Positions 31,100 to 43,988 of a stretch of DNA of 64,000 nucleotides are shown here, one piece after another. Numbering within the stretch: the first letter of the stretch is position 1; every line of letters begins with the position of its first letter. The notes beneath the pieces were generated by a model. The model saw only the letters and a program-made list of their open reading frames with translations, was not told where the DNA came from and did not search any database. Source of the DNA: Ralstonia pickettii DTP0602 (GTDB lineage Bacteria; Pseudomonadota; Gammaproteobacteria; Burkholderiales; Burkholderiaceae). Location: the NCBI GenBank assembly GCA_000471925.1, contig CP006668.1:434001-498000 (forward strand), read 5' to 3'. The position numbers and the translations under genes were made by a program.

Positions 31100-32038
31100 A
31101 TGGAATCCGCTCGCTTCGCCGAAAACCTGGCCATCTTTGTCGAAGTCGCGCAGTCTGGCAGCTTCTCGGCCGTGGCTCGCCAGCGCGGCATGGTCGCGTC
31201 GTCGGTCGCCCGCCAGATCGACACGCTGGAGCGGGAGCTCGGCGTGCCGCTGTTCACGCGGTCCACCCGGGCGCTGGTCCGCACCGACGCCGGCGACCTG
31301 CTGTTCGCGCGGGCCACGCGCATCCTGCATGAACTCAGCGATACGCGCGACGCCGTCACCGCGCTGGAGCAGGGCGTCAGTGGCCTGGTGCGGGTAGCGT
31401 GCCTTCCCGCCTTCGGCCGGCGCCACGTGGTGCCGCACCTGGGCGCGCTCTACGCGCAATACCCGCGCCTGACCGTGGAGCTGGCGCTGACCGAGCGCGT
31501 GGTGGATCCCGTGGTGGAACGCTTCGACGTTGTGATACGTGTCGGCCAGCAGGCCGACAGCTCGCTGATTGCACGATGCATATCCGATCAGCGCTACATC
31601 ATCTGTGCGACCCCCGCCTACCTGGCGCAACATGGACGCCCCGTCCATGCGGATGAACTCAGGCGGCACCGCCTCATCGATCGTGGCCACAGCACCAGCA
31701 TGCGCGGCTGGCGGGAATTGCTGACACCGGCGCACAGCGCACAGGCAACCTTTGCGCTCGAGTGCGATGACTGTGACGCGCGCCGGCTGTCTGTGCTCCA
31801 GGGGCTCGGCATCGCGCTGATGCCAGACTGGTCGGTGGGCCCGGATATCGGCGCGGGCCGCCTGGTGGAACTCACGCTAGACGGGCTGTTGCCGCAAGCG
31901 CAGGGGGGCATCTACCTGCTGCGCGCGACGCAGCACGCCAGCGCCAAGGTCAAGGCCTTCTGCACGCACCTGACGGCGAGCATTGGCAGCCCGCCTAGCT
32001 GGCAGTTGGCGATGACGGGGGAGGTGGCGCTGGCTTAG
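31100..32038 (+). CDS. LysR family regulator
   Basis: A 312-residue regulator. The N-terminal helix-turn-helix is FAENLAIFVEVAQSGSFSAV, then QRGMVASSVARQIDTLERELG; the C-terminal periplasmic-binding-like effector domain ends about residue 295. It belongs to the CrgA/DsdC-like short-effector group. An ATG 36 bp upstream (31064) is possible, but 31100 has a GCGAGGA site and the family start MESARF. It is divergent from the Bug-maleylacetate reductase operon, its probable target. Confidence 0.9.
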   Translation: MESARFAENLAIFVEVAQSGSFSAVARQRGMVASSVARQIDTLERELGVPLFTRSTRALVRTDAGDLLFARATRILHELSDTRDAVTALEQGVSGLVRVACLPAFGRRHVVPHLGALYAQYPRLTVELALTERVVDPVVERFDVVIRVGQQADSSLIARCISDQRYIICATPAYLAQHGRPVHADELRRHRLIDRGHSTSMRGWRELLTPAHSAQATFALECDDCDARRLSVLQGLGIALMPDWSVGPDIGAGRLVELTLDGLLPQAQGGIYLLRATQHASAKVKAFCTHLTASIGSPPSWQLAMTGEVALA

Positions 32039-32049
32039 GAACGCAAGGC

Positions 32050-33123
32050 TCAGAAGCGATGCCGCATCCCCACCCCGAACGCATCGCCATGGGATTGGGA
32101 AGTCAGCTTGTCGTAAAAGTAGGCCGCGTACAAGTCGGTGCGCTTTGACAGGTTGTAGTCATAGGCGATTGCCGCGGTATTCCTGCTGAAGTCGTTAGTG
32201 CCATGCCTGGTCCGGCCGTACGCGTATGACAGCAAGACGCTGCCAGCGCCAAGGGGAACCGAGGCGCCGAGCTGGGCGTTCGTGTGTCTGATGTCGCCCG
32301 CGCCCCCATTGATATCGGTCTTGATGTACTGACCCTGGGCAAACATCTTGACCACCTTGAAATCGTAAGACAGTCCGACCTGGGCCGCATTCTGCTTGTT
32401 GAAGCCAACCAGGGCGCTGGGAGCGGTGACGTCTCCTGGTGTCGCATTGAACTTGACTTGCTGGAACGCTGCCGTGGCTCCGAATGCGCCGTTGAAATAG
32501 GTCAGGTTTCCGCCCCACTTGCTCTGGCCGGTACTGCCGGCCTGCTCGCCGAAGGCGTAGATGAGGTTGGCGGTCAGGCCGCCGAACGTCGGCGTCGAGT
32601 ACACGACGGAGTTCGACCAGCCGGAGTCGCCAATGATGCCGGGGTCGTAGACCTGTCCGTTGGTGGCGGCCTTGTAGGTATGAAAGATCGATGGCCCGAA
32701 CGCGTACGAATCGACCAGCGGGTTGAACAGGATCGTCGACAGGAAGTATGGCGTGGTGTTGCGGCCCAGCTTGACCGTACCGTAGCGATTGCTCTGCAGG
32801 CCCACGAAGGCGCTGCGGGTGAAGAAGCCGTCAGTATCCGATCTGCCGGATCGCCCCGTATCGACGCGGTAGAACCCGTTCAGGTCGAAGATGGCACGCA
32901 TGCCGCTCCCAAGATCCTCGACGCCCTTCATCCCCCAGTAGGACGTCTGCATACCGCCTGCACCGACGACCAAGGCGCGTTCCCCGCCCGCGGCGCGTGT
33001 GCTGCCGATGTAGGAATCGACTTGCCCGTACAGCGTCACGCTCGATTGCGCATTGGCATTGAAGCCTAGTCCCGCTGTCAGCAGGGCGGTGCACAGTGCA
33101 GCGTTGCGCGGTCTTTTGGCCAT
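32050..33123 (-). CDS. Gram-negative porin (OmpC-like, porin_4 family)
   Basis: A 357-residue outer-membrane trimeric porin. The signal peptide ends at NANAQ, and the first strand SSVTLYGQVDSYIG and the C-terminal strand ending in Phe (FGVGMRHRF) are hallmark features. It shows regular amphipathic strands throughout and the constriction-loop segment GRNTTPYFLSTILF. The ATG at 33123 has a GAGGAGA site. It lies 396 bp downstream of the orotate operon on the same strand but may have its own promoter. Confidence 0.93.
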   Translation of the reverse strand: MAKRPRNAALCTALLTAGLGFNANAQSSVTLYGQVDSYIGSTRAAGGERALVVGAGGMQTSYWGMKGVEDLGSGMRAIFDLNGFYRVDTGRSGRSDTDGFFTRSAFVGLQSNRYGTVKLGRNTTPYFLSTILFNPLVDSYAFGPSIFHTYKAATNGQVYDPGIIGDSGWSNSVVYSTPTFGGLTANLIYAFGEQAGSTGQSKWGGNLTYFNGAFGATAAFQQVKFNATPGDVTAPSALVGFNKQNAAQVGLSYDFKVVKMFAQGQYIKTDINGGAGDIRHTNAQLGASVPLGAGSVLLSYAYGRTRHGTNDFSRNTAAIAYDYNLSKRTDLYAAYFYDKLTSQSHGDAFGVGMRHRF

Positions 33124-33519
33124 GATGTCTCCTCGTATTGATATGTAGTTGGTTGAAATAAGGAAAAGGGAGCCCGTGGCGGCCATGAGATGGCCGCCAG
33201 CCACAGCGACGGGGATGGGTGTAAAAAGGCGCTAGATCACTGCCGGGGCAGCGGCAAGCGGTGGCCGCGGACCGTGCTGATGACGCCCACGAGATTGCCG
33301 CGCGGTGTACTTCTTCCCTTCAGACGGCTACCGTCAGTGCCTTCAGGAGACCGGTGGCGTTATGTCGCGCCGATGCCCCCCATGCGCCTGGGACCAGCCG
33401 GCGGGGTTGGCAAGGAACGACGCCAGCTCGTGCAATGCAGCCGGCATCCAGCAAGGCCTGGGCGACGGAGGTGCCCAGGGTCAGTTCATTGCGACTCAAT
33501 GACATATGGCAATTCCAAT
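33124..33519. other. Gap between porin and aspartate ammonia-lyase
   Basis: No recognisable gene. A minus-strand frame (33323-33523, with MSLSRNELTLGTSVAQALLD) has protein-like wording but no family match and no ribosome site worth noting. It may be a relic. Confidence 0.35.
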
Positions 33520-34962
33520 TCATCTGGCTGGACCGCCCTCGCGCGGAGGGTTGGACGGATAGACCCGGGGCTGTGTCAATGCCTCGGGGCGCAGGGCTTC
33601 ATCGAGCTCGGCTGCTGTCATCAGCTTGCGGCGCAGCACCACATCGCGGATGTTGGTGTTGTTGGCAAACGCCTCTGCGGCCACCGCGGTGGCGTTCTTG
33701 TAGCCGATGATGGGGTTCAGCGCCGTGACGAGCGCGATCGAGCGCTCGATCGTTTCCCGCAGCCGCTCAGGGTTCGCGGTAATGCCCTTGATGCATTTCT
33801 CCGCGAGGGTGAAGCAGCCATTGGTGAGATGCTTGAAGCTGCGGAACAGGCTCGCGGCAATCACGGGCTCGAAGGCGTTGAGCTGCAGTTGCCCGGCTTC
33901 CGCGGCGAACGTCACGACCGTATCGTTGCCGAAGACCTCGAAGGCAATCTGGTTCACAACCTCCGGGATCACCGGATTTACCTTGCCCGGCATGATGGAG
34001 GAGCCGGCTTGCATCGGTGGCAGGTTGATCTCGCCAAAGCCCGCGCGCGGCCCGCTCGACAACAGGCGCAGGTCGTTGCACGTCTTGGACAGCTTCACGG
34101 CGATGCGCTTCAGTACCCCGGAAATCTGCACGAAGGCGCCACAGTCCTGGGTTGCCTCCACCAGGTTCGGGGCGGTGAGCAGCTCGATGCCCGTGATCCG
34201 GCTCAAGGCCGCGGTGGCCTTGGCGGCGTAATCCGGGTGGGCGGTAATGCCGGTGCCGATGGCGGTGGCGCCGAGATTGACTTCGCGAATCAGCGCGGAG
34301 GCTTCACGCAGACGCGCCATGTCCTCTTCCAGCATCACGGCGTAAGTGGAGAACTCCTGGCCCAGGGTCATGGGCACGGCGTCCTGGAGTTGCGTGCGGC
34401 CGAGCTTGAGCAGGCCGGCGAACTCCACTGCCTTGTCGTGGAAGGCGGCCCGCAGGACTTCCATCGCTTCGAGCAGATGCCCGATGGCGAAGAACGTCGC
34501 GATGCGCAGCGCGGTGGGATACACGTCATTGGTGCTCTGCGCCATGTTGACGTGCTCGTTGGGGTGCAGGTAAGCGTACTCGCCGCGCTTATGGCCCAGA
34601 ATCTCCAGGGCACGGTTGCAGATGACCTCGTTGGCGTTCATGTTGGTCGAGGTCCCGGCCCCGCCCTGGATGGTGTCGACAACGAACTGGTCGTGGAACT
34701 TGCCTTCCCGCACTTCCTGGCAGGCCGCGATGATCGCATCCCTGAGTGGGACCGGCAGCAGCCCAAGCTCGGCATTGGCCTCCGCCGCGGCCTGCTTGAC
34801 CGCTGCCAGTGCGAGGATCAGGTTGGGGTAGGCCGAGATCGGCGTACCGGAGATCTGGAAGTTCTCGACGGCCCGGAGCGTGTGGACGCCGTAGTAGGCG
34901 TCGGCGGGCACGTCGCGCTCGCCTAGCAGGTCGGATTCGATGCGGAATGTGGGGGTGTTCAT
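33520..34962 (-). CDS. aspA: Aspartate ammonia-lyase
   Basis: A 480-residue fumarase/aspartase-superfamily enzyme that deaminates L-aspartate to fumarate and ammonia. It has the N-terminal RIESDLLGERDVPADAYYG, the substrate motif GGAGTSTNMNANEVI, NEHVNMAQSTND, and the catalytic signature loop GSSIMPGKVNP. The aspartase/fumarase choice rests on the GERDVP and TSTNMN forms. It is the last gene of the orotate operon, 27 bp after pyrC, where it would turn the final aspartate into a TCA intermediate and release nitrogen. Confidence 0.93.
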   Translation of the reverse strand: MNTPTFRIESDLLGERDVPADAYYGVHTLRAVENFQISGTPISAYPNLILALAAVKQAAAEANAELGLLPVPLRDAIIAACQEVREGKFHDQFVVDTIQGGAGTSTNMNANEVICNRALEILGHKRGEYAYLHPNEHVNMAQSTNDVYPTALRIATFFAIGHLLEAMEVLRAAFHDKAVEFAGLLKLGRTQLQDAVPMTLGQEFSTYAVMLEEDMARLREASALIREVNLGATAIGTGITAHPDYAAKATAALSRITGIELLTAPNLVEATQDCGAFVQISGVLKRIAVKLSKTCNDLRLLSSGPRAGFGEINLPPMQAGSSIMPGKVNPVIPEVVNQIAFEVFGNDTVVTFAAEAGQLQLNAFEPVIAASLFRSFKHLTNGCFTLAEKCIKGITANPERLRETIERSIALVTALNPIIGYKNATAVAAEAFANNTNIRDVVLRRKLMTAAELDEALRPEALTQPRVYPSNPPREGGPAR

Positions 34963-34989
34963 CAGGGGCTCCCTGCAGCTTGGTGATAT

Positions 34990-36042
34990 CTACAGACTAG
35001 GCGATGCCAGTGTCCATTCCAGCGTCTCGCCCGCCAGGAAGGGCTGGATGCGCTTGCCGTCGGGAAGGGATACCGATCCGGCGACGCGGGTACGGGTCCG
35101 GTGCAGGATGACGGTGCCTTCGTTGAGCGGGAGGCCATAGAAGCGTGCGCCGTGCTCGCTGGCGAAGCCTTCGAACCGTGCCATGGCGTTCTCCTCCTCG
35201 AACACGGTGAGATAGGCCTCCAACGCGGTTGGCGCACTGAAGATCCCGGCACAGCCGCAGGCGGCCTCCTTGGCGGAAGTGTCGTGGGGCGCCGAATCCG
35301 TGCCGAGGAAGAAGGACGGGGACCCTGATGTCGCTGCCCGCCGCAGCGCGAGGCGGTGTTGCTCGCGCTTGAGCACAGGCAGGCAGTAATAGTGCGGGCG
35401 AATGCCCCCGGTGAACATGGCATTACGGTTCAGCATCAGGTGCTGGGGCGTGATGGTTGCTGCCAGCCTTGCGCTGTCATCGCGCATGACGAGGTCGGCC
35501 GCGTCTTCGGTGGTGATATGTTCCAGCACGACCTTCAGGCGTGGAAACGCCGCCAGCAGCGGGCGCAAGGTGCGGCGGATAAACACGGCTTCCCGGTCGA
35601 ATACATCCACCGCCGGGTCGGTGCTCTCGCCATGGACCAGCAGAGGCATTCCAAGCTCCTGCATGATGGCGAGCACGGCGGACACGCGCTCGATCGAGGT
35701 CACGCCGTACTCCGAGTGGGTCGTGGCCCCGGCGGGGTACAGTTTCACGGCGCTAAAGACGCCTGCCTCGAAGCCCTCGCGGATCTCCGCAGGGCGGGTG
35801 CTGTCGCAGAGGTAGCAGGTCATCAACGGCGTAAAGCGTGCGCCCGGCGGCAGTGCCGCGAGGATACGTTCGCGATAGGCAATGGCAGCCGCGATCGTTG
35901 TCACCGGCGGCTTCAGGTTAGGCATCACGACGGCGCGGGCGAACTGCCGTGCCGTATGCGGCAGCACCGCGGCAAGCGTGTCGCCGTCGCGCAGGTGGAG
36001 GTGCCAGTCGTCGGGGCGGCGGATGGTCAGGGTCTCAGGCAT
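34990..36042 (-). CDS. pyrC: Dihydroorotase, class II
   Basis: A 350-residue zinc amidohydrolase of the E. coli PyrC type. It has the metal-binding RRPDDWHLHLRDG (about residues 7-19), the carboxylated lysine in FSAVKLYPAGATTHSE, later metal His in LVHGES and VLEHITT, and the catalytic Asp in LGTDSAPH. All key residues are present. The enzyme is reversible; in this operon it would open dihydroorotate to N-carbamoyl-L-aspartate. The ATG at 36042 is used rather than upstream starts inside the hydrolase gene. It lies 26 bp after that gene. Confidence 0.94.
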   Translation of the reverse strand: MPETLTIRRPDDWHLHLRDGDTLAAVLPHTARQFARAVVMPNLKPPVTTIAAAIAYRERILAALPPGARFTPLMTCYLCDSTRPAEIREGFEAGVFSAVKLYPAGATTHSEYGVTSIERVSAVLAIMQELGMPLLVHGESTDPAVDVFDREAVFIRRTLRPLLAAFPRLKVVLEHITTEDAADLVMRDDSARLAATITPQHLMLNRNAMFTGGIRPHYYCLPVLKREQHRLALRRAATSGSPSFFLGTDSAPHDTSAKEAACGCAGIFSAPTALEAYLTVFEEENAMARFEGFASEHGARFYGLPLNEGTVILHRTRTRVAGSVSLPDGKRIQPFLAGETLEWTLASPSL

Positions 36043-36068
36043 TGGGGATATCCGGGACTTCGTGGGCC

Positions 36069-37322
36069 TTACAGGCTCGAAATGGTGTTGGACAGGACCT
36101 TGACGCCCAGCATGAAGTCGTCGATGTCCATGGCTTCGTCCGGGTTGTGCGAGCCATGCTCGTTGCGCACGAACAGCATGCCGGTGGGGATGCCGGCGTT
36201 CGCGAACAATGACGCGTCGTGGCCGGCGCCGCTCGGTACCAGTTCGGTGGGGAGGTTCTCCCGCTTGCATTGCTCGGTCAGCAGGTCGGAGAGCCGGCCG
36301 TCCATCACGGCGGGCGCGGCATCGATACGTCGGTCAAACTCGAAGCGAACGCCCCGGTCCCGCGCGATCGCCTTGCATTCGGTGCGGAACAACTGATAGA
36401 AGCCTTCGAGCGTCTCGGCGCTCTTGCTGCGGGCTTCGAAGCTGAAGTGCACGGTGTCGGGGATGCGGGAAATGGAATGCTCTTCCGGGCTGGTGGACAC
36501 GATGCCGGTCGTCACTACCAGGTCGATGCCGCGTTCCAGCAGCGCCTTCCAGTGTTCGTCCAGGCGCGTGATCAGGTCCGCCACCGCGAACATCGCGTCC
36601 TTGCGCAGCCAGCGCGGCACTGCGCCGGAGTGCCCCGGCTCACCGACGCAGGTGACCCGGTTGTGCCGCACATTGCCGCGGATGCCGGGGACCACGGCAA
36701 GCGGCAGCTGGCGCGCCACCATGACCGGACCCTGCTCGATATGCAACTCGAGATAGGCCGCGGCGGCGGATTTATCGAACAGCACCTCCTGGTTCGTGAC
36801 CGCTTGAACATCTGCGCCTGCGGCAGCCATGGCTGCGCCGAGCGTCTGGCCGGTCTGGCGATGTCCCAGTGCCAGGTCGTCAGCCGTCAGCTTGCCTAGC
36901 GCAGCGCCCGAGCCCATATAGGCCTTGCCGAACCAGGCGCTTTCTTCCCCGCGGAAAGCAATCACCTTCAGTGGTACCGGCGAGTACGTCCCGCTTTGCT
37001 TCTGGCCGAGCAGGCAGAGCAACCCGGCCACGATGCCCGCGAGGCCATCGTAGTTGCCGCCCCTGGGCACGGAGTCCATGTGAGACCCAACCCAGGCCGC
37101 GGGCGCGCTCGCCTCCGACTCCGGGAGTCGGAATACGAGGTTGGCCGCGCGGTCGGCCTCTACGCGCAGGCCATGACCTTCGGCGAAACGCCGCAGGTAT
37201 TCGGCCACTGCCGTTTCCCCCGCGCCGTAGCTGTCGCGCGTCACGCCAACGCCGTCAAACGATAGCTCGCGTATGTCCCGGAAGAGCTGTTCCGCGACGG
37301 GCTTTAGTTCCAGAATATCCAT
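36069..37322 (-). CDS. N-carbamoyl-L-amino-acid hydrolase (M20 family), probable ureidosuccinase
   Basis: A 417-residue binuclear-metal amidohydrolase of the HyuC/AllC branch. It has the metal-ligand region VGSHMDSVPRGGNYDGLAGI, the Glu-Glu pair in AFRGEESAWFGKAYMGS, LELHIEQGPVM, and a C-terminal SGAGHDASLFANAGIPTGM. The family hydrolyses N-carbamoyl amino acids, allantoate or beta-ureidopropionate. Between PyrC and PyrD genes the natural substrate is N-carbamoyl-L-aspartate, giving L-aspartate, CO2 and NH3. That assignment is inference from context; the family call is firm. Confidence 0.88.
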   Translation of the reverse strand: MDILELKPVAEQLFRDIRELSFDGVGVTRDSYGAGETAVAEYLRRFAEGHGLRVEADRAANLVFRLPESEASAPAAWVGSHMDSVPRGGNYDGLAGIVAGLLCLLGQKQSGTYSPVPLKVIAFRGEESAWFGKAYMGSGAALGKLTADDLALGHRQTGQTLGAAMAAAGADVQAVTNQEVLFDKSAAAAYLELHIEQGPVMVARQLPLAVVPGIRGNVRHNRVTCVGEPGHSGAVPRWLRKDAMFAVADLITRLDEHWKALLERGIDLVVTTGIVSTSPEEHSISRIPDTVHFSFEARSKSAETLEGFYQLFRTECKAIARDRGVRFEFDRRIDAAPAVMDGRLSDLLTEQCKRENLPTELVPSGAGHDASLFANAGIPTGMLFVRNEHGSHNPDEAMDIDDFMLGVKVLSNTISSL

Positions 37323-37394
37323 GACATGTCCAGCATGATTGGTGGCGCCACGCGAGAGCGTGACGCGGCCTGGTCCGGGAGGATGGCTGCCGGC

Positions 37395-38345
37395 TCAGCC
37401 CGACTGCTGCGCGAAGCGCAACCAGCGGTCGCTCAGTTGACGGTCGAGCTTCACCTGTCCGGTGAGGTCACGGATCGCCGCGGTGCCCGTCTCTTCGCAA
37501 TAGGCATGGAGCCCGTCGATGATCTTCTGCATCACGCCAGGGTCACGGAACGAGGCGGTGCCCACCTGGACCGCGCTGGCACCGGCAAGCATGAACTCGA
37601 CGGCGTCGTCCGCGTTCTGGATGCCCCCGCAGCCGATGATGGGAATGCGCACCGCGCGATAGCACTGATGGACCAGCCGCAGCGCAATCGGCTTGATCGC
37701 TGGGCCCGACATGCCGCCCATGACGTTGCCAAGCCTGGGCTTGCGCGTGCGGATGTCGATCGCCATCCCGAGCACGGTGTTGCCCATGACGATGGCGTCG
37801 GCGCCAGCGTCCTCGGCGGCCCGCGCCACGGCGGCGATATTGCTGGCGTTCGGGGTCAGCTTGACCCAGAACGGATGCCTGGTGCGGCGGCGGATCGCGG
37901 AGACTGCCTTGTAGGTGGTCTCCGGCAGCATGGCAAAGGCCATGCCGTCGGCCTCGAGGTTGGGGCAGGAGATATTGGCCTCGATGGCCGCGACTTCCGG
38001 CAGCGACATCTCCTCGCAAGCCAGCGCGAACTCTTCCGCCGTGTCGGCGGAGATCGAGACCACGACCGGTGTGTCGTATTGCGTGTAGGGCGGCAGCACG
38101 CTGCCGCGGTAGTAGTCGAGTCCCTTGCTTGGAATGCCGATGGAATTCAGCATGCCGCTGTGGACTTCCGCAACGCGGGGCGTGGGATTCCCGGCGCGGG
38201 ACTTCGGCGAAACGCTCTTGATCACCAGGGCGCCAAGCTGGTTGAGGTCCATCGCTTCGCGGTACTCGATCGCGAAGCAGCCGGAGGCGGGCATCACGGG
38301 ATTGCGCAGCGTCAGGTCGCCGACCCGTACAGTCAGATTAGCCAA
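37395..38345 (-). CDS. pyrD: Dihydroorotate dehydrogenase, class 1B catalytic subunit
   Basis: A 316-residue FMN TIM-barrel. The substrate/FMN elements are NPVMPASGCFA, HSGMLNSIGI, the catalytic cysteine loop EANISCPNLEADG, FWVKLTPNASNIAA, VMGNTVLG, and GCGGIQNADDAVEFMLAGAS. Class 1 features and the adjacent pyrK indicate the NAD-linked 1B type, unlike the quinone-linked class 2 enzyme usual in proteobacteria. The best start is TTG at 38345 after a GGGGAGG site, overlapping the pyrK stop by 8 bp. The NAD-linked type can run as an orotate reductase, as in Clostridium oroticum. Confidence 0.9.
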   Translation of the reverse strand: MANLTVRVGDLTLRNPVMPASGCFAIEYREAMDLNQLGALVIKSVSPKSRAGNPTPRVAEVHSGMLNSIGIPSKGLDYYRGSVLPPYTQYDTPVVVSISADTAEEFALACEEMSLPEVAAIEANISCPNLEADGMAFAMLPETTYKAVSAIRRRTRHPFWVKLTPNASNIAAVARAAEDAGADAIVMGNTVLGMAIDIRTRKPRLGNVMGGMSGPAIKPIALRLVHQCYRAVRIPIIGCGGIQNADDAVEFMLAGASAVQVGTASFRDPGVMQKIIDGLHAYCEETGTAAIRDLTGQVKLDRQLSDRWLRFAQQSG

Positions 38346-39186
38346 AATCCACCTCCCCAACCACTTCGCGAATCGGAAACACCGGGCCTTCACGGCAGAC
38401 CCTGAGAAACTGCTTGTCGCCCTCGCAGTCGAACAGGCGCACGCAGGACAGGCATACGCCCATGCCACAGGCCATCCGTTGCTCCATGGCCACCTCTCCC
38501 CTGACGGCGGGGTAGTCGCCGAGGATGCGCTGGAGCAGCATCAACAGTCTATGCGAGCCACATGTGTAGACCGCATCGGGCCGCTGTGCGTCGATCAGCT
38601 CGCGCAGCAGCACTGCAACGGTTTCGACCGAAGACGTACCGTCGGCGTCGAAGACGGTGTGGACCTCGGCGGCAGCGCCGCGCAGGAACTCTTTCTCCAT
38701 CAGGTCGTCGCGGCTGCGCGCCGACATCACCGCAGTGATGGCGACGCCTGCGTCCGCGGCTTGCCGGATCAGCGGTGCCATCGTGGCCAGGCCGACACCG
38801 CGGGCCACGACCAGGATGCGCCGGAAGGACGGGGCGAAAGTAAAGGTATTGCCCAGCGGGCCCACGATATCCATCTCGCCATCGACCAGCAGGGTCGACA
38901 TGGCGCGCGTGCCGACGCCGGTCACGTTGTAGAGGAATTCGATGGTGCCGTCGGCCGGGCCGGCGCCGTACACGCTCATGGGCCGGAGCAGGAACGGTTC
39001 CTCGTCACCGGTGCTGGGGCATTTGAGCTGATAGAACTGCCCGGGCCTGGTCATGGTGGCGATCGGCGCGTCCGACGCCAGGCGAATGTACTTGTAGCGC
39101 TGGTTGACCCAGTAGTGCTCGACTACCCGGCAGCGATAGGAAGCGACGGTGGCGCTGCTGCGCCCACCGCACACGGTTGCTGACAT
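38338..39186 (-). CDS. pyrK: Dihydroorotate dehydrogenase electron-transfer subunit
   Basis: A 282-residue FAD/NAD/[2Fe-2S] subunit. The N-terminal FAD barrel includes RPGQFYQLKCP and FLLRPMSVYGAG; the NAD domain includes GPLGNTFTF and ILVVARGVGLATMAPLIRQA. Near the C-terminus the iron-sulfur cysteines lie in ACGMGVCLSCV and LFDCEG, with a further VCREGPVF. It passes electrons between NADH and PyrD. The ATG at 39186 has an AGGAG site. The usual GGTG of the nucleotide site is changed to ARGVG, which is conservative in this family. Confidence 0.9.
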   Translation of the reverse strand: MSATVCGGRSSATVASYRCRVVEHYWVNQRYKYIRLASDAPIATMTRPGQFYQLKCPSTGDEEPFLLRPMSVYGAGPADGTIEFLYNVTGVGTRAMSTLLVDGEMDIVGPLGNTFTFAPSFRRILVVARGVGLATMAPLIRQAADAGVAITAVMSARSRDDLMEKEFLRGAAAEVHTVFDADGTSSVETVAVLLRELIDAQRPDAVYTCGSHRLLMLLQRILGDYPAVRGEVAMEQRMACGMGVCLSCVRLFDCEGDKQFLRVCREGPVFPIREVVGEVDFG

Positions 39187-39248
39187 GATGACTCCTGCTG
39201 ATTTGAAACCGCCGCGCTCGCGCAATGGGAGCGCGGCATTGCGTGCTG

Positions 39249-40496
39249 TTATTCCAGCTCGACGCCCTTGAGTTCAGGGATAAGGAAGAAGGTCGCAAGC
39301 ATGTCCAGCACATAGATGCTGGCGAGCAAGGCGATCGCGACCTGGAACGAGTAGGTGGCAGCGAGCGCGCCGACCACGATGGGGCCCAGGCCGCCAACGG
39401 CCCGGCCGATGTTGAACAGCACGTTCTGGGCTGTAGCGCGGGCGGCGGTCGGGTACGCCTCGGAGATCAGCGCGCCGTATCCGCCGATCATGCCGTTGAC
39501 GAACATGCCCATGACGGCGCCTGCCCACAACATCGTCGTCGGGTCCGACAGCTTTGCGTAAGTGAGGACCATGGCCACGGCACCCGCCTGGAAGATCAGG
39601 AAGGTGGGCTTGCGGCCGATGCGGTCGGCCAGGTGCCCGAAGATATAGACGCCGATCATCATGCCGACGATGGTCACCGAGGTCCACAACGCGGACTTGG
39701 TCAGCGAGAAACCAAGCGCCTTCGACAGGTATGTCGGCAGCCAGATCATGATCCCGTAGTAGCCGAAGTTCTGGACCGAGCAGAGGATGACGATGCCCAG
39801 GCTGGTCCGCGTGGTGCGCCTGTCCGCGACCAGCAGCCTGAAGGCGTTGGCTTTCTTCTCGGTTCTTGTGCTGCGCACGAAGACTTCCGGCTCGTGCAGG
39901 CGGTTGCGCACAAACCAGGCAACGAAGGCCGGCAGCACGCCGATCAGGAACATACCGCGCCAGCCGACGACCGGCAGCAGCAGCGGCGTCAGCAGTGCCG
40001 CCATCAGCACCCCCGCCTGCCATCCCAGCGCGACATAGGACGAGACGCGTGCCCGTTTGCTGGCCGGCCACGCTTCGGCCGCCAGCGCCATGCCGATGCC
40101 GAACTCCCCGCCGAGGCCGATACCGGCGATGGTCCGGTAGATCAGCAGGTCCCAGAATCCTTGCGCAAACGCACACATGCCGGTGAACACCGCAAACAGC
40201 ACGATGGTCCAGGTCAGCACGCGCACGCGGCCGTACCGGTCGCTGAGCGAGCCGAAGATGATGCCGCCGGCGACGGCGCCTACCAGCGTCCAGGTCACCA
40301 GCGCGCCGGACTGGCTGGTGTTCAGCAGCAGCGCTGCGCTGATGGCGGGCAGCATGAAGCCCAGGATGAGCAGGTCGAAGCCGTCCATTGCGTAGCCAAT
40401 GGCAGACCCGGCCAGGGCCTTCCAGGCATAGGGCGACGTCTTTTCTTCAGGAATTGCACCGGCGGGGGCCATCGATGCTTTGGCGTTTGCTTCCAT
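39249..40496 (-). CDS. MFS permease, candidate orotate transporter
   Basis: A 415-residue twelve-helix symporter. The first helix GYAMDGFDLLILGFMLPAI carries the Asp-rich motif of acid:H+ symporters, followed by FGSLSDRYGRVRVLTWT and GIGLGGEFGIGMALAAEAWP. Its closest general class is the aromatic-acid/sialate-type MFS. It is the first gene of the orotate operon, 62 bp before pyrK, so uptake of orotate or a dihydropyrimidine is the simplest role; this is inference. It is unrelated to the citrate-type OroP permease of lactococci. Confidence 0.85.
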   Translation of the reverse strand: MEANAKASMAPAGAIPEEKTSPYAWKALAGSAIGYAMDGFDLLILGFMLPAISAALLLNTSQSGALVTWTLVGAVAGGIIFGSLSDRYGRVRVLTWTIVLFAVFTGMCAFAQGFWDLLIYRTIAGIGLGGEFGIGMALAAEAWPASKRARVSSYVALGWQAGVLMAALLTPLLLPVVGWRGMFLIGVLPAFVAWFVRNRLHEPEVFVRSTRTEKKANAFRLLVADRRTTRTSLGIVILCSVQNFGYYGIMIWLPTYLSKALGFSLTKSALWTSVTIVGMMIGVYIFGHLADRIGRKPTFLIFQAGAVAMVLTYAKLSDPTTMLWAGAVMGMFVNGMIGGYGALISEAYPTAARATAQNVLFNIGRAVGGLGPIVVGALAATYSFQVAIALLASIYVLDMLATFFLIPELKGVELE

Positions 40497-40545
40497 GGGG
40501 AACAGTCCTCTGGATATCGTAGTCGTGACTTGCTGCGGCTGGGGC

Positions 40546-40599
40546 TTATCGGGCGCCTGGGGAGTGGGGTGCTGGCGCGGAAGGCGGATGCTTTGTCAT
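40546..40599 (-). CDS. Possible 17-residue leader peptide in front of the orotate operon
   Basis: A short frame, MTKHPPSAPAPHSPGAR, with a good GGAGACAGAC ribosome site, ends 49 bp before the permease ATG. Five of its 17 residues are proline, so it might slow ribosomes and couple translation to operon expression. It may equally be chance. Confidence 0.3.
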   Translation of the reverse strand: MTKHPPSAPAPHSPGAR

Positions 40600-40609
40600 G
40601 TCTGTCTCC

Positions 40610-40636
40610 TTTTTTAGACCGATGGCATCTAAAAAA
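40610..40636. promoter_or_regulatory. A/T-tract inverted repeat upstream of the orotate operon
   Basis: TTTTTTAGA (40610-40618) and TCTAAAAAA (40628-40636) form a perfect 9-bp inverted repeat. The half-site TTTTTTAGAC recurs at 40703-40712. Two sites on the permease side of the divergent region suggest binding by the XRE regulator. Confidence 0.5.
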
Positions 40637-40786
40637 CCACTGCACCTGCGTCCGGTAGCCGACCTGGGGCGTACAACCGGGCGTCATGCAGTGGAAATCT
40701 TTTTTTTTAGACTATTCGTCCCCGATAGCCATGGCAAGGAATTTCTGATGGGATCAGGGTATCTCCCGAGTCCGCAAAAAGAGGCC

Positions 40787-40824
40787 ATTGCTGTCCCGCG
40801 CCAGCGTGCTATAGTGACAGCAAT
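40787..40824. promoter_or_regulatory. 9-bp inverted repeat before the XRE regulator gene
   Basis: ATTGCTGTC (40787-40795) and GACAGCAAT (40816-40824) are perfectly complementary with 20 bp between, ending 18 bp before the regulator ATG. A candidate autoregulatory site. Confidence 0.45.
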
Positions 40825-40842
40825 CTAATTATTGAGACAGTG

Positions 40843-41727
40843 ATGGATCGTCGTGCCACCGCAGCCGGAATGATCGATTTCGAGGCCATTGGCGCCCGCC
40901 TGCGGGCTTATCGCCTGGGCGCGGAGCTGCGTGCCGAGCAAATTGCCGAAGTGCTGGGGATCTCGCGCGCCGCGGTCTACCGCATGGAAAAGGGCGAGAT
41001 TGTAAAAATTGAGACGCTGGAGAAGCTGGCGGGCATCCTTGACACCTCGCTCGCGTCGCTTTTGGGGGCGGGGACGGAATACTATCCGTCGGCGCTGGCC
41101 TATATCGAGCGCATGCGCCAGCTGGAACAGGGCGCGACCCGGATTCTGGCGCACTTCGAGCCCATTTCCTTCCTGCTCACTTCTCCCGACTACGACCGCT
41201 ATCTGGAGCAGATGCTGCGGGAAAGCGGCGACCACCTCGATGACAAGCGCATCCGGGCCATGATGGAGCTGCTGCAGGAGCGCAAGCGCTCGTTCGTGTC
41301 GAGTCCTGCGCCCATCGTCAGCCTGATCGGGCTGCGCGAACTGGAGCGCTTCGTCCATTTCGGACTTGTCGGCAAAATGGACCTGCCGCCTGCCACCAGG
41401 ATGGAGCGGTCGCTCGCGGCGCGTGCGGAGGTCGAGCGCATTGCCGAACTGCTGGAGAAGCAGCCCATCGGGATGCAGATCGGCATCGTCGACGAGAGCA
41501 TGCCGAACGCGACCTTTCAGGTCTTCGAGCGCCCGAGCGGATCCTATGTGGCGGTCAGCCCGTTCCGCTTCGGCGAGTTCCCGAACATCTCATCCGGCAT
41601 CGCTTCCGTGACCGCCGCGCCCGAAGCCGTTGCCCTGTACACGCACATGGTTGAGTCCCTGTGGCAGCGAGCCTACAAGGGGGCTGACGGTGCGGCGCTG
41701 CTGCGGCGCATGCTCCAGCAGGTTTGA
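40843..41727 (+). CDS. XRE family regulator of the orotate operon
   Basis: A 294-residue regulator. The helix-turn-helix is at about 15-70 (RLRAYRLGAELRAEQIAEVL, then GISRAAVYRMEKGEI). The C-terminal part of about 220 residues ends in GIASVTAAPEAVALYTHMVE and looks like an effector or oligomerisation domain of unknown kind. GTG at 40840 is an alternative start. It is divergent from the orotate operon and followed 37 bp later by a small conserved gene. Control of orotate degradation is inferred from position. Confidence 0.82.
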   Translation: MDRRATAAGMIDFEAIGARLRAYRLGAELRAEQIAEVLGISRAAVYRMEKGEIVKIETLEKLAGILDTSLASLLGAGTEYYPSALAYIERMRQLEQGATRILAHFEPISFLLTSPDYDRYLEQMLRESGDHLDDKRIRAMMELLQERKRSFVSSPAPIVSLIGLRELERFVHFGLVGKMDLPPATRMERSLAARAEVERIAELLEKQPIGMQIGIVDESMPNATFQVFERPSGSYVAVSPFRFGEFPNISSGIASVTAAPEAVALYTHMVESLWQRAYKGADGAALLRRMLQQV

Positions 41728-41764
41728 ATTCAGTTCGTTCCATCCTCCTTCTTCAAAACCAGCG

Positions 41765-42100
41765 ATGACCACCATGACGTTCAGCACTGTCACCGAGCAG
41801 TTCAATGCAAGCGTACCGGGCACCGATGCCTTCCTCAGGGTCAAGGAGAGCATGCCGACACTGATGAAAAGCGATCCGTCGCATGCGGCCGCCTACTTCC
41901 TGGTGTATGGGTTCGCGCGTTCCTATGTGATTCTTCACGACGACGAAGGCATCACGATGGAAGTCGCCGAGATGGCCAAGAACCAGCTACTGGGCTATAT
42001 GCGCGCGGTCGAGCAGGCGCTTCCCGGTGGCGCGGAGGCGCTGCTCGCCGCCATGAACGAGATCGTGGTCCACTACGACGCGAACAAGCAGTTGTTCTGA
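41765..42100 (+). CDS. Conserved hypothetical protein (111 residues)
   Basis: A small, mainly helical protein (FSTVTEQFNASVPGTDAFLR near the start; YFLVYGFARSYVILHDDEGI in the middle) with no signal peptide or metal motif. It lies 37 bp after the XRE regulator and is probably co-transcribed. Its mixed helical composition with many acidic residues suggests a soluble partner or stabiliser; no function is recognised. Confidence 0.65.
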   Translation: MTTMTFSTVTEQFNASVPGTDAFLRVKESMPTLMKSDPSHAAAYFLVYGFARSYVILHDDEGITMEVAEMAKNQLLGYMRAVEQALPGGAEALLAAMNEIVVHYDANKQLF

Positions 42101-42108
42101 CGTCCGCG

Positions 42109-42240
42109 TCAGAGCGACTGACTCAGTGCCGCTCGTTCGGCTTGCGGCTCGCGCGCGCCTTGCCCGAGGCTGCGCTCGATTTCCCGGACGGTCTCAAGCA
42201 ACTTGGGACGGATTTCTTCGTGCAGGCGCGCGGCGTACAT
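42109..42240 (-). pseudogene. 3' remnant of a regulator-like gene
   Basis: A coding-like tail, MYAARLHEEIRPKLLETVRE, running to ERAALSQSL and a stop, reads as the last helices of a larger protein. It resembles C-termini of IclR-type regulators. Upstream of 42240 (minus-strand sense) the frame loses protein character and enters AT-richer DNA, so the 5' part has been deleted. The rest of 42241-42579 contains no gene. Confidence 0.4.
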
Positions 42241-42579
42241 GCCCGGTGCCGCTCACGCCTTGCGTCCGGGAATATCGATTAAACCGGACAAATTTGCACA
42301 ACTGAAAAGGCCTTCCCTGAAGATTCAATAAGGTTGTTTTGCAATGCAGTCTGGAGGTAATGCGCGCGGCCGGCCCTTGCCGGCGGCGCGCAGCATCGCA
42401 TTCCGACCCGACATATCGGGGAGCAGAGGGGCTATCTGCGCGATAGATAACCCTATGCAATATCCTCGCTTGCTTCTCTTCTGGAACGGTCCAAACTTCG
42501 TCTCCAAGGCGTGACGCTTTGTTGCCAGAGCAATCACACTTGTTGCGATTGGACACTCCTAAAGAGACAGCTTCCAGAC

Positions 42580-43988
42580 ATGACTGCACCCACCACGGTT
42601 CAACGTATTGGAACGTTCGCTTCGAACGCGCGAGCGAATCAACTCACCCCGCAGGCTCGCCATCTGTTCAAGCGCAATATCCTCGACAGTCTCGGCTGTG
42701 CGATTGCGGCGCTTCCTGGCACCCCGTTCAAGGCACTGCGAGAGCAGTTCGATGAATACCGTGGCTCGGGTTCGTGCTCGCTGATCGGCGGCGGCAAGAC
42801 ATCGCCTGACCAGGCCGCCTTGTACAACTCCGGCCTAGTCCGCTACGTCGATCTGTTGGACAGCTACATGTCGCCGGGCGGGCTTTGCCACCCCAGCGAC
42901 AATTTCGGCGCCATCCTGGCGGCGGCAGTGCATGTGTCCGCGAGCGGCGAGGACTTCATGCTCGCGCTGGCGGTAGCGTATGAGATCCAGGGGCGTATTA
43001 CGGCAGTCGTTCCGGTGATGGCAAAGGGCTTCAATCACGCTATCCAGCTCGCAGTTTCAGCGGCGGCCGGGTCGGGCAAGCTGTTTGGCCTGGATCAGGA
43101 GCAACTCGCCCATGCGATAGCGATCGCCACCGTGGACAACATTTCGTTGACCTGCGTTCATTCCGAGCCGGTCTCGCAATGGAAGGGATTCTCCCCGGGC
43201 ATCACTGGCATGCGCGCGGTCTATGCGGTGTCGCTTGCAAAGCGCGGGTTCACCGGTCCGCTTCGCCTGTTTGAAGGGCCCAACGGCCTGGTCCGGATGT
43301 TCGACCAGCCAATTGACGTCGATTGGGAGGATCAGCGGCTCGAGATCATCTTCCAGTCCGTGATGAAGAAGTACTGCTCGCTGATCCACGGCCAGCCAGT
43401 GCTCGAGGCCACGCTTGCGCTCAAGCGCAAGAACAACGTGAAAAGTGAAGACGTCGAGCAAGTGGTGTGTGACATCTTCCAGACGGGCTTCGACATCGCG
43501 GGCGGTGGCGCCTTCGGTCCCAAGGATCATCCGCAGACCAAAGAGCAAGCGGACTACAACCTCAAATACCTGATCGCAGCCGCCCTGCTCGACGACCAGG
43601 TAGGGCTGCCCAGCTGGAGCCCGAGCGCGTGCAGGCAGCCGATGCGCAGGCACTGCTGAAAAAGGTCACCGTGCGTCCCGATCCGGCATTCACCGCCCAG
43701 TATCCCCAGGCGCTGAACACCAGGGTGACGATCCGGTGCAAGGACGGCCGCGAGTTGTCTGCCGAGCACGTCGGTTTTGAAGGCGGTCTCGGCAATCCGC
43801 TCAGCTGGGAGCGCGCGGTCGAGAAATTCCATTGGCTGAGCGAGCCATATGCCGATGAAGCGCTTCGAGGCCAGATCATTCATCTGGTCTCGACATTGGA
43901 TGAGCATTCGATTTCTGAGTTGATGCAACTCATGGCGAAGGTGAGTCCGACACCAAAGTTCCCGGCGAAACACCGGGGAATCCAGTAA
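42580..43988 (+). pseudogene. MmgE/PrpD family dehydratase-like gene, frameshifted
   Basis: Reads as one MmgE/PrpD protein (2-methylcitrate dehydratase/cis-aconitate decarboxylase superfamily) split by a frameshift near 43605-43620. The first frame runs from MTAPTTVQRIG through LDSLGCAIAALPGTPF, MAKGFNHAIQLAVSAAAGSG and KYLIAAALLDDQVG. The sequence then continues in the next frame as AAQLEPERVQAADAQALLKK to the stop at 43988. One missing base would explain it. The two parts together have a normal length (about 465 residues). It is either a pseudogene or a sequencing error. Confidence 0.8.

Follow-up and report, generated by a model that had tools for sequence, protein, structure and literature searches.

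A probable operon for orotate utilization in Ralstonia pickettii DTP0602 and its relatives, with a candidate gene for ureidosuccinase

Introduction

Six closely spaced genes on the minus strand of a 64,000-nucleotide stretch of Ralstonia pickettii DTP0602 (contig CP006668.1, positions 434,001 to 498,000; hereafter the window, in whose own numbering all positions are given) very probably serve the utilization of orotate by a reductive route. These genes, at 33520-40496, encode a permease of the major facilitator superfamily (MFS), PyrK, PyrD, a hydrolase of the M20 family, PyrC and AspA. An earlier note, made from the letters of the window, had proposed that orotate is imported and then degraded via dihydroorotate, N-carbamoyl-aspartate and aspartate, and this proposal is now strongly supported by the genes present, by further biosynthetic copies that the genome has elsewhere, and by related operons that include PyrE, adjoin PyrF or use another dihydroorotase. 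A wider reading is that the operon belongs to a mobile, pan-proteobacterial orotate system in which the M20 protein is the missing ureidosuccinase. Such a system would have a regulator and an operator of its own, a PyrE branch in some members, a helical-bundle partner and, in Klebsiella plasmids, a place within a lac-linked region for milk use; this wider reading seems to us slightly more probable than its opposite.

Orotate is a pyrimidine precursor and is also found in milk. Its reductive degradation in Clostridium (Zymobacterium) oroticum was reportedly described by Lieberman and Kornberg in the 1950s, and a 1955 paper in J. Bacteriol. is said to have treated orotate in aerobic bacteria. 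The clostridial route consists of an NAD-linked dihydroorotate dehydrogenase (EC 1.3.1.14), dihydroorotase and ureidosuccinase (EC 3.5.1.7), the last of which is, to our knowledge, an enzyme without an assigned gene. The window has the same predicted steps to aspartate, with a candidate for each of them (PyrDK, PyrC and M20) together in one place, plus AspA. Unlike the clostridial case, the operon is proteobacterial, is accompanied by a permease, an XRE regulator, an operator and a porin, ends with AspA, and has relatives in which PyrE is frequent. No gene cluster for the reductive orotate route, and no data on growth on orotate by it, were found in the titles and beginnings of abstracts of the open-access literature searched, a body that lacks most subscription journals. 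The chemistry itself is already known. New here, it appears, are the set of genes, the regulator with its operator, the branch through PyrE, the clade proposed for ureidosuccinase, and the occurrence on Klebsiella plasmids. With this operon, an orphan enzyme, ureidosuccinase, could be tested with a single gene and a single assay. If the reading is true, the public labels 'allantoate amidohydrolase' and 'pyrimidine biosynthesis' would be corrected for a whole protein clade, a candidate permease and a candidate regulator for orotate uptake would be in hand, and orotate would seem valuable enough as a nutrient for bacteria to carry genes for its use, perhaps also in milk.

Genes of the operon

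All six genes are intact, they lie opposite to a gene for an XRE regulator at the positions that the earlier note had given, and family models agree with its assignments.

39249..40496, minus strand: MFS permease, presumed orotate importer (415 amino acids; TIGR00895-like, below cut-off)
38338..39186, minus strand: PyrK, electron-transfer subunit with flavin adenine dinucleotide (FAD) and [2Fe-2S] (282 amino acids; PF10418 above cut-off)
37395..38345, minus strand: class 1B dihydroorotate dehydrogenase PyrD (316 amino acids; TTG start; NF005574)
36069..37322, minus strand: M20 carbamoylase, candidate ureidosuccinase (417 amino acids; TIGR01879)
34990..36042, minus strand: class II dihydroorotase PyrC (350 amino acids; TIGR00856)
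33520..34962, minus strand: aspartate ammonia-lyase AspA (480 amino acids; TIGR00839)

The inventory of six genes plus the XRE regulator was thereby borne out, and it is to be supplemented with a decayed pyrE, a porin gene and a gene for a 111-amino-acid protein, which had been left unlisted. The reading frames of pyrK and pyrD share 8 base pairs (bp) and the remaining intergenic gaps are 26-72 bp; we infer that the six genes are transcribed as one unit.

Judged from their sequences, PyrD and PyrK make up a class 1B dihydroorotate dehydrogenase, for which an NADH-linked orotate-reductase activity is predicted. PyrD passes the class 1 models NF005574 (374.3 bits against a cut-off of 269) and TIGR01037 (324.1 against 270), while it fails the class 2 model TIGR01036 (81.8 against 200) and the PreA model (140.9 against 335). 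PyrK has the Fe-S domain of the DHODB family (PF10418, 49.7 bits against 23.9), matches the NCBIfam PyrK models, all below their cut-offs (123.1 against 270 at best), and retains four cysteines that are aligned with those of PyrK in 5ksw and 1ep1. PyrDB of Lactococcus lactis (1ep1) is among the best solved relatives of the PyrD in the window. The L. lactis pair and the window pair have the same two subunits, with a PyrD model above cut-off and the Fe-S cysteines kept, but the window pair adjoins a carbamoylase gene, and its genome encodes a class 2 PyrD besides.

The two genes at the end of the operon encode PyrC and AspA. PyrC reaches 451.8 bits with the equivalog model TIGR00856 (pyrC_dimer), whose cut-off is 292.95, and aligns with solved dihydroorotases of the 1xge/3mjm type. 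AspA scores 700.8 bits with TIGR00839 (cut-off 681.2), stays below the cut-off of either class II fumarase model, and aligns with the solved aspartases 6wng and 1jsw. At the other end, the MFS permease is likest aromatic-acid:H+ symporters (TIGR00895, 351.6 bits, under the cut-off of 418.55), and it presumably starts at the downstream position 40496. Another start codon, in 40546-40599 of the minus strand, stands by eye at the place where related Cupriavidus permeases begin, and its frame has only 17 codons.

Conservation of the core

How constant is this arrangement? A PyrK-based search of genome contigs gave 45 named loci, each taken with up to about 9 kilobases (kb) on either side; 16 of them are from Pandoraea and two from one Caballeronia genome, and the genera represented include Cupriavidus, Paraburkholderia, Trinickia, Variovorax, Hydrogenophaga, Comamonas, Castellaniella, Pusillimonas and Eoetvoesiella, together with one gammaproteobacterial record. 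The closest locus by PyrK is that of Cupriavidus necator A5-1 (96% identical). The M20 gene directly follows pyrD in 45 of the 45 loci, with gaps of 7-159 bp, and since this order is kept throughout, a chance arrangement is excluded. Homologues of the MFS permease are found in 43 loci, those of the XRE regulator in 40, and those of a porin (at least 38% identity) in 27; the porin gene of the window lies downstream of aspA.

32050..33123, minus strand: outer-membrane porin, a recurrent neighbour (PF13609, 170.7 bits)

The two loci that lack the MFS permease are L047, where a TRAP transporter is found instead, and L065. The same replacement is seen in L148, L151, L175, L177 and L178. Because PyrC matches only 18 of the 45 loci, including a 153-base fragment in L039 and two pieces in L078, and AspA only 17, the core is the set of permease (MFS or TRAP), PyrK, PyrD and M20, and this set recurs in Alpha-, Beta- and Gammaproteobacteria. 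The full six-gene form described in the earlier note is one of several. Where PyrC or AspA is lacking, copies encoded elsewhere in the genome could serve.

Among 398 genomes of the family, 59 have a PyrK match at E 1e-20; 48 of these are of the operon type (at least 62% identity), with a patchy spread, and 11 have a second PyrK-PyrD type alone (42-49% identical). This second type was considered as a form of the same system and rejected, as the 15 loci fetched (L088-L101 and L107) are without an M20 of the operon clade. In the four such loci that were scanned for neighbours, asparaginase genes lie near the pair in L089 and L092 and dioxygenase genes in L089 and L090, and in L089 and L092 the pair is followed by proteins of 232 and 243 amino acids without a Pfam match. 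When M20 was used for selection, 29 of 399 order-level genomes matched at E 1e-90, the genome of the window included. Twenty M20-selected stretches were inspected: of 11 with at least 50% identity, three have PyrDK, seven have PyrE without PyrDK and one has neither, and the nine with 42-44% identity have none of the pyr genes. At the level of the class, the only match among 369 genomes was the window's own.

Link to orotate

The chemistry of the operon is anchored to orotate by three independent facts, all read from gene sequences: PyrE recurs in related operons, PyrF adjoins one of them, and in another a class I dihydroorotase keeps the step of PyrC. From these facts orotate is taken as the substrate. 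PyrE is found in 21 of the 45 named loci, being near full length in 19 (at least 597 of 684 bases by tblastn) and fragmentary in L040 and L052. It passes the NCBIfam cut-offs in L043 and L175, and in L047 and L049 the PyrE model is the best match yet below its cut-off; L077 has a PyrE gene of the operon type and a second PyrE of another type above cut-off.

The other two facts come from plasmids. Eight plasmid regions were chosen by eye from 88 records matching M20 and 72 matching PyrK. PyrF, the enzyme that acts next after PyrE, is encoded beside the operon of an Agrobacterium plasmid (TIGR02127, 263.2 bits against 110.6). A Pseudomonas putida plasmid has a class I dihydroorotase in the position of PyrC (NF006688, 701.3 against 535), and the plasmid also has a gene for a malic-enzyme-like protein. 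Alphaproteobacterial plasmids of Nitratireductor, Pacificitalea and Roseicitreum carry XRE, TRAP transporter, PyrK, PyrD, M20, PyrE and small-gene homologues, and a Roseomonas plasmid carries a LysR gene with PyrK, PyrD, M20 and PyrE.

In the window itself, only remains of pyrE are left, just downstream of aspA.

33376..33505, minus strand: decayed pyrE, start at 33505, N- and C-terminal ends in different frames, centre lost

PyrE of L043 was used as tblastn query against 660 bases of the window and, likewise, against 1,700 bases of L035. In the window the search recovered residues 1-38 (E 4e-6) and 202-222 (E 2e-5), and in the 1,700 bases of L035 nothing better than E 0.62. The absence of pyrE, which had been used earlier as an argument against biosynthesis, is thus not a valid one, as pyrE is a regular member of the family that has decayed in the window.

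Separate biosynthetic copies in the same genome

Even without that argument, pyrimidine biosynthesis stays an unlikely purpose of the operon, given the separate biosynthetic copies elsewhere in the genome. The host genome has 8.13 megabases in three contigs, and biosynthetic pyr copies lie on contig 1. They comprise a class 2 PyrD (TIGR01036, 423.6 bits against 200), a second PyrC that is 60% identical to that of the operon, and a PyrE that is intact and belongs to another type (TIGR00336, 183.8 against 106.8). The earlier note had held that its reading would fall if a separate biosynthetic pyrC and pyrD were lacking; both are present. A cluster for de novo pyrimidine synthesis should hold the sole genomic copies of pyrC and pyrD, and here another PyrC and a class 2 PyrD are encoded on a different contig. 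A second aspartase-like protein, 70% identical to AspA of the operon, is also encoded elsewhere in the genome.

A candidate gene for ureidosuccinase

The M20 protein passes the hydantoinase/carbamoylase model TIGR01879 (267.3 bits against 204) and keeps the presumed zinc ligands, and it is the sole member of its kind in the genome, the next five carbamoylases being 30-33% identical. No family that it matches in Pfam or NCBIfam bears the name ureidosuccinase. What is the substrate of such a protein? In a tree of 69 rows, 47 operon-type proteins and relatives are split from 22 other carbamoylases with a branch support of 100/100; the branching among the 47 rows is mostly open, and a long-branch warning applies to AllC_1z2l.

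Residues were compared in an alignment of 167 rows (the 45 named loci, the window, the genome copy L082 and 120 database proteins, partly overlapping). His81, Asp92, Glu127, His194 and His392, which we take to be the zinc ligands from the structures of AllC and L-carbamoylase, are invariant in all 167 rows. So are Arg215 and Trp130, and Arg237 and Arg286 are each found in 166, with lysine in the remaining one. Position 285 is serine in 152 rows and threonine in 15, while it is asparagine in all 22 other carbamoylases; in the known enzymes, this asparagine binds the carboxylate of the substrate. None of the 22 has the operon-type residues at positions 130, 215, 237, 285 and 286. All eight plasmid relatives have Arg286, Arg215 and Trp130; seven have arginine or lysine at 237, and seven have serine or threonine at 285. 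The added arginines, which may be placed in the active site, would fit a dicarboxylic substrate.

Two named enzymes of the same superfamily invite comparison. ErtE, an N-carbamyl-L-glutamate amidohydrolase (NF058540), has a named substrate that is likewise an acidic N-carbamoyl amino acid, but the M20 protein of the window scores 271.4 against a cut-off of 520, falls outside the ErtE clade, and differs at residues 130, 215, 237, 285 and 286. The allantoate amidohydrolase AllC (TIGR03176) shares the zinc ligands, but the score is 190.1 against 597.75 and the conserved asparagine is changed to serine or threonine. The likeness to ErtE, the closest NCBIfam match with a functional name, was also tried as support for an acidic N-carbamoyl substrate and was given up, since on that model five further carbamoylases encoded in this genome reach more bits (349-359 against 271). 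With the substrate suggested by the genetic context, the genes of the M20 clade are strong candidates for encoding ureidosuccinase.

Regulator, operator and small gene

Divergently from the permease gene lie the gene for the regulator and a small gene, and the region between permease and regulator genes contains the candidate control elements.

40840..41727, plus strand: XRE-type regulator, divergent (295 amino acids; HTH_31/HTH_3)
41765..42100, plus strand: conserved 111-amino-acid protein (no Pfam or NCBIfam match; predicted five-helix bundle)
40697..40712, minus strand: candidate operator O1, GTCTAAAAAAAAAGAT (two mismatches to GTCTA-N6-TAGAC)
40604..40619, minus strand: candidate operator O2, GTCTAAAAAAGGAGAC (one mismatch; best site of the window)
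40737-40732 and 40714-40709, minus strand: candidate promoter picked by eye, with -35 TTGCCA, a spacer of 17 bp and -10 TAGTCT

The palindrome GTCTA-N6-TAGAC is a conserved candidate operator before the permease gene, to which the XRE regulator may bind. Of 44 regions (43 named loci and the window, each taken with up to 450 bp before the permease gene), 29 have it with no more than one mismatch, and in 19 of these it is perfect. The corresponding rates are 0.9% for mononucleotide shuffles and 3.6% for random segments, which were drawn from the same loci and may contain the operator itself. O1 overlaps the -10 element of the candidate promoter, and O2 is located 77 bp further on. It is to be noted that this promoter was chosen by eye from conserved upstream regions and is absent from the output of the consensus scan, which gave one site in 32000-42600, located elsewhere, against 1.9 expected. 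A riboswitch or attenuator in the leader was considered as well and rejected: there is a hairpin upstream of the permease gene, but its folding z-score is -1.55 and 16 of 200 shuffles are as stable or more. An Rfam search of 31500-43000 gave a single match, within pyrC and far under the gathering score.

XRE homologues were found in seven of the eight plasmid operons fetched (293-516 bits), four of them alphaproteobacterial. The 111-amino-acid protein is modelled with a predicted local distance difference test (pLDDT) score of 93.5, and its fold resembles the arrangement of CheA P1 at a level that is possibly chance for helical bundles. Its family adjoins the XRE regulator or the permease, with homologues in 19 of the 45 named loci and 15 of the 398 family genomes. 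A hidden Markov model of the family matched five of seven small-gene candidates beside plasmid operons (22.6-163 bits), those of L172 and L178 being unmatched. In some genomes of the genus, members of the family lie away from PyrK.

Klebsiella plasmids and milk

A 5.6-kb block with the genes for PyrK, PyrD, M20, PyrC, XRE and the small protein is found in 53 Klebsiella plasmids with at least 80% query coverage and at least 99% identity; two more Klebsiella records match it over 4% only, and megablast found it in none of 5,426 E. coli genomes. When the query was extended to 13.1 kb, from the permease to lacZ, one joined place covered at least 80% of it in at least 49 records. In Klebsiella plasmids such as L171 (NZ_CP050823.1), 1.4 kb separate the operon from lacYZ, copper genes are close by, and the permease gene is divergent.

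Cow's milk is rich in orotic acid. Sheep milk is described as containing it as well (PMC12191573). Are these plasmids, then, associated with milk? Milk or mastitis milk is the source of nine of the 53, and people are the source of 29. Among 60 lac-matching records sampled, four have the block, and only one of the other 56 is from milk. The proportions of 9/53 with the block and 1/56 without it differ with a Fisher p of 0.007, or 0.018 if nine non-Klebsiella rows are left out, and this association of the operon with milk is a lead rather than a proof. Acquired lac plasmids of mastitis Klebsiella are the subject of PMC12724306, and lac-bearing Klebsiella plasmids are likewise the setting of at least 49 of the 53 operon copies. 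A term search in the main text of that paper found no mention of 'orot', 'pyrimidine', 'pyrC' or 'pyrD'.

Proposed pathway and alternatives

In the pathway proposed here, the porin and the MFS permease would import orotate, and PyrDK, a pair assigned to its class by sequence, would run as an NADH-dependent orotate reductase to give L-dihydroorotate. PyrC, a dihydroorotase by class, would then open the ring to N-carbamoyl-L-aspartate, from which the M20 carbamoylase would release aspartate, CO2 and NH3, and AspA, whose class is clear, would convert aspartate to fumarate and NH3. The XRE regulator would act on GTCTA-N6-TAGAC at the permease promoter, with orotate or an intermediate as its probable ligand. 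In related operons, PyrE may divert part of the orotate into uridine monophosphate (UMP), and in the genome of the window PyrE of contig 1 would serve for this.

Can the same genes be read in the opposite direction? Class 1B dihydroorotate dehydrogenase is a biosynthetic oxidase in many Firmicutes, and its direction is not fixed by sequence. Dihydroorotate or N-carbamoyl-aspartate might be imported, PyrDK might make orotate for PyrE and UMP, and the M20 protein might trim excess N-carbamoyl-aspartate; that PyrE is common in related operons and PyrF adjoins one of them would agree with such an oxidative salvage. However, 26 of the 45 named loci have no near-full-length PyrE in the stretch examined while M20 is never missing, pyrE of the window is decayed, biosynthesis is already covered by the class 2 PyrD, and AspA, as well as the malic-enzyme-like gene of the P. 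putida plasmid, points to recovery of carbon and nitrogen. We thus regard salvage in the oxidative direction as improbable. Somewhat less probable still is that the same enzyme classes act on another acid that resembles a pyrimidine or a hydantoin, such as 5-carboxymethyl-hydantoin or a substituted orotate. Pairs of hydantoinase and carbamoylase are classic for hydantoins and the transporter is likest aromatic-acid symporters, but the score of PyrC is that of a genuine class II dihydroorotase, the orotate enzyme PyrE is a regular partner, and in the one operon where PyrC is replaced, its place is taken by the other class of dihydroorotase and not by a hydantoinase. Finally, a redundant cluster for de novo pyrimidine synthesis, as suggested by the biosynthetic names of PyrC and PyrD/PyrK and by annotators who place PyrD under pyrimidine biosynthesis, can hardly be what these genes form, with a carbamoylase and an aspartase running the opposite way, copies of PyrD, PyrC and PyrE elsewhere in the genome, a divergent regulator and an adjoining permease.

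Besides the oxidase role of class 1B enzymes in Firmicutes, several observations speak against the reading of a reductive orotate operon or against its parts. PyrC and AspA are absent from over half of the 45 named loci in the stretches examined, L065 has neither an MFS nor a TRAP transporter, and the plasmid records matching M20 exceed those matching PyrK (88 against 72), so that some M20 relatives occur without PyrK. In the eighth plasmid operon, L172, a LysR gene takes the place of XRE. The operator with at most one mismatch is absent in 15 of the 44 upstream regions, and 16 of the 19 perfect operators are from Pandoraea, so that the sample is not independent; the other three are from Paraburkholderia and Caballeronia. 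The milk figure comes from a small number of plasmids that are related to each other, and more of the 53 (29) are from people. The nearest subfamily name given by NCBI to the M20 protein is 'allantoate amidohydrolase' (397.1 bits against a cut-off of 399). In seven loci (L143-L147, L149 and L150), an M20 protein of 55-58% identity lies directly beside PyrE without PyrDK and has valine at position 286, and L151, which does have PyrDK, has isoleucine there; the added Arg286 is therefore not strictly tied to orotate reduction. Loci with M20 and PyrE and without PyrDK possibly represent another route to the same carbamoyl acid. The surroundings of L146 contain genes for an amidase, an amidohydrolase, a CN-hydrolase and TctC, and those of L143 genes for an amidohydrolase, hydantoinase B and TctC.

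Another feature of the window

Beyond the small gene, at 42580-43985 on the plus strand, a MmgE/PrpD gene is found in two frames, the break being near 43640. The profile of its C-terminal domain gives two partial matches (positions 1-85 and 83-170), which reflect either a frameshift or a sequencing error.

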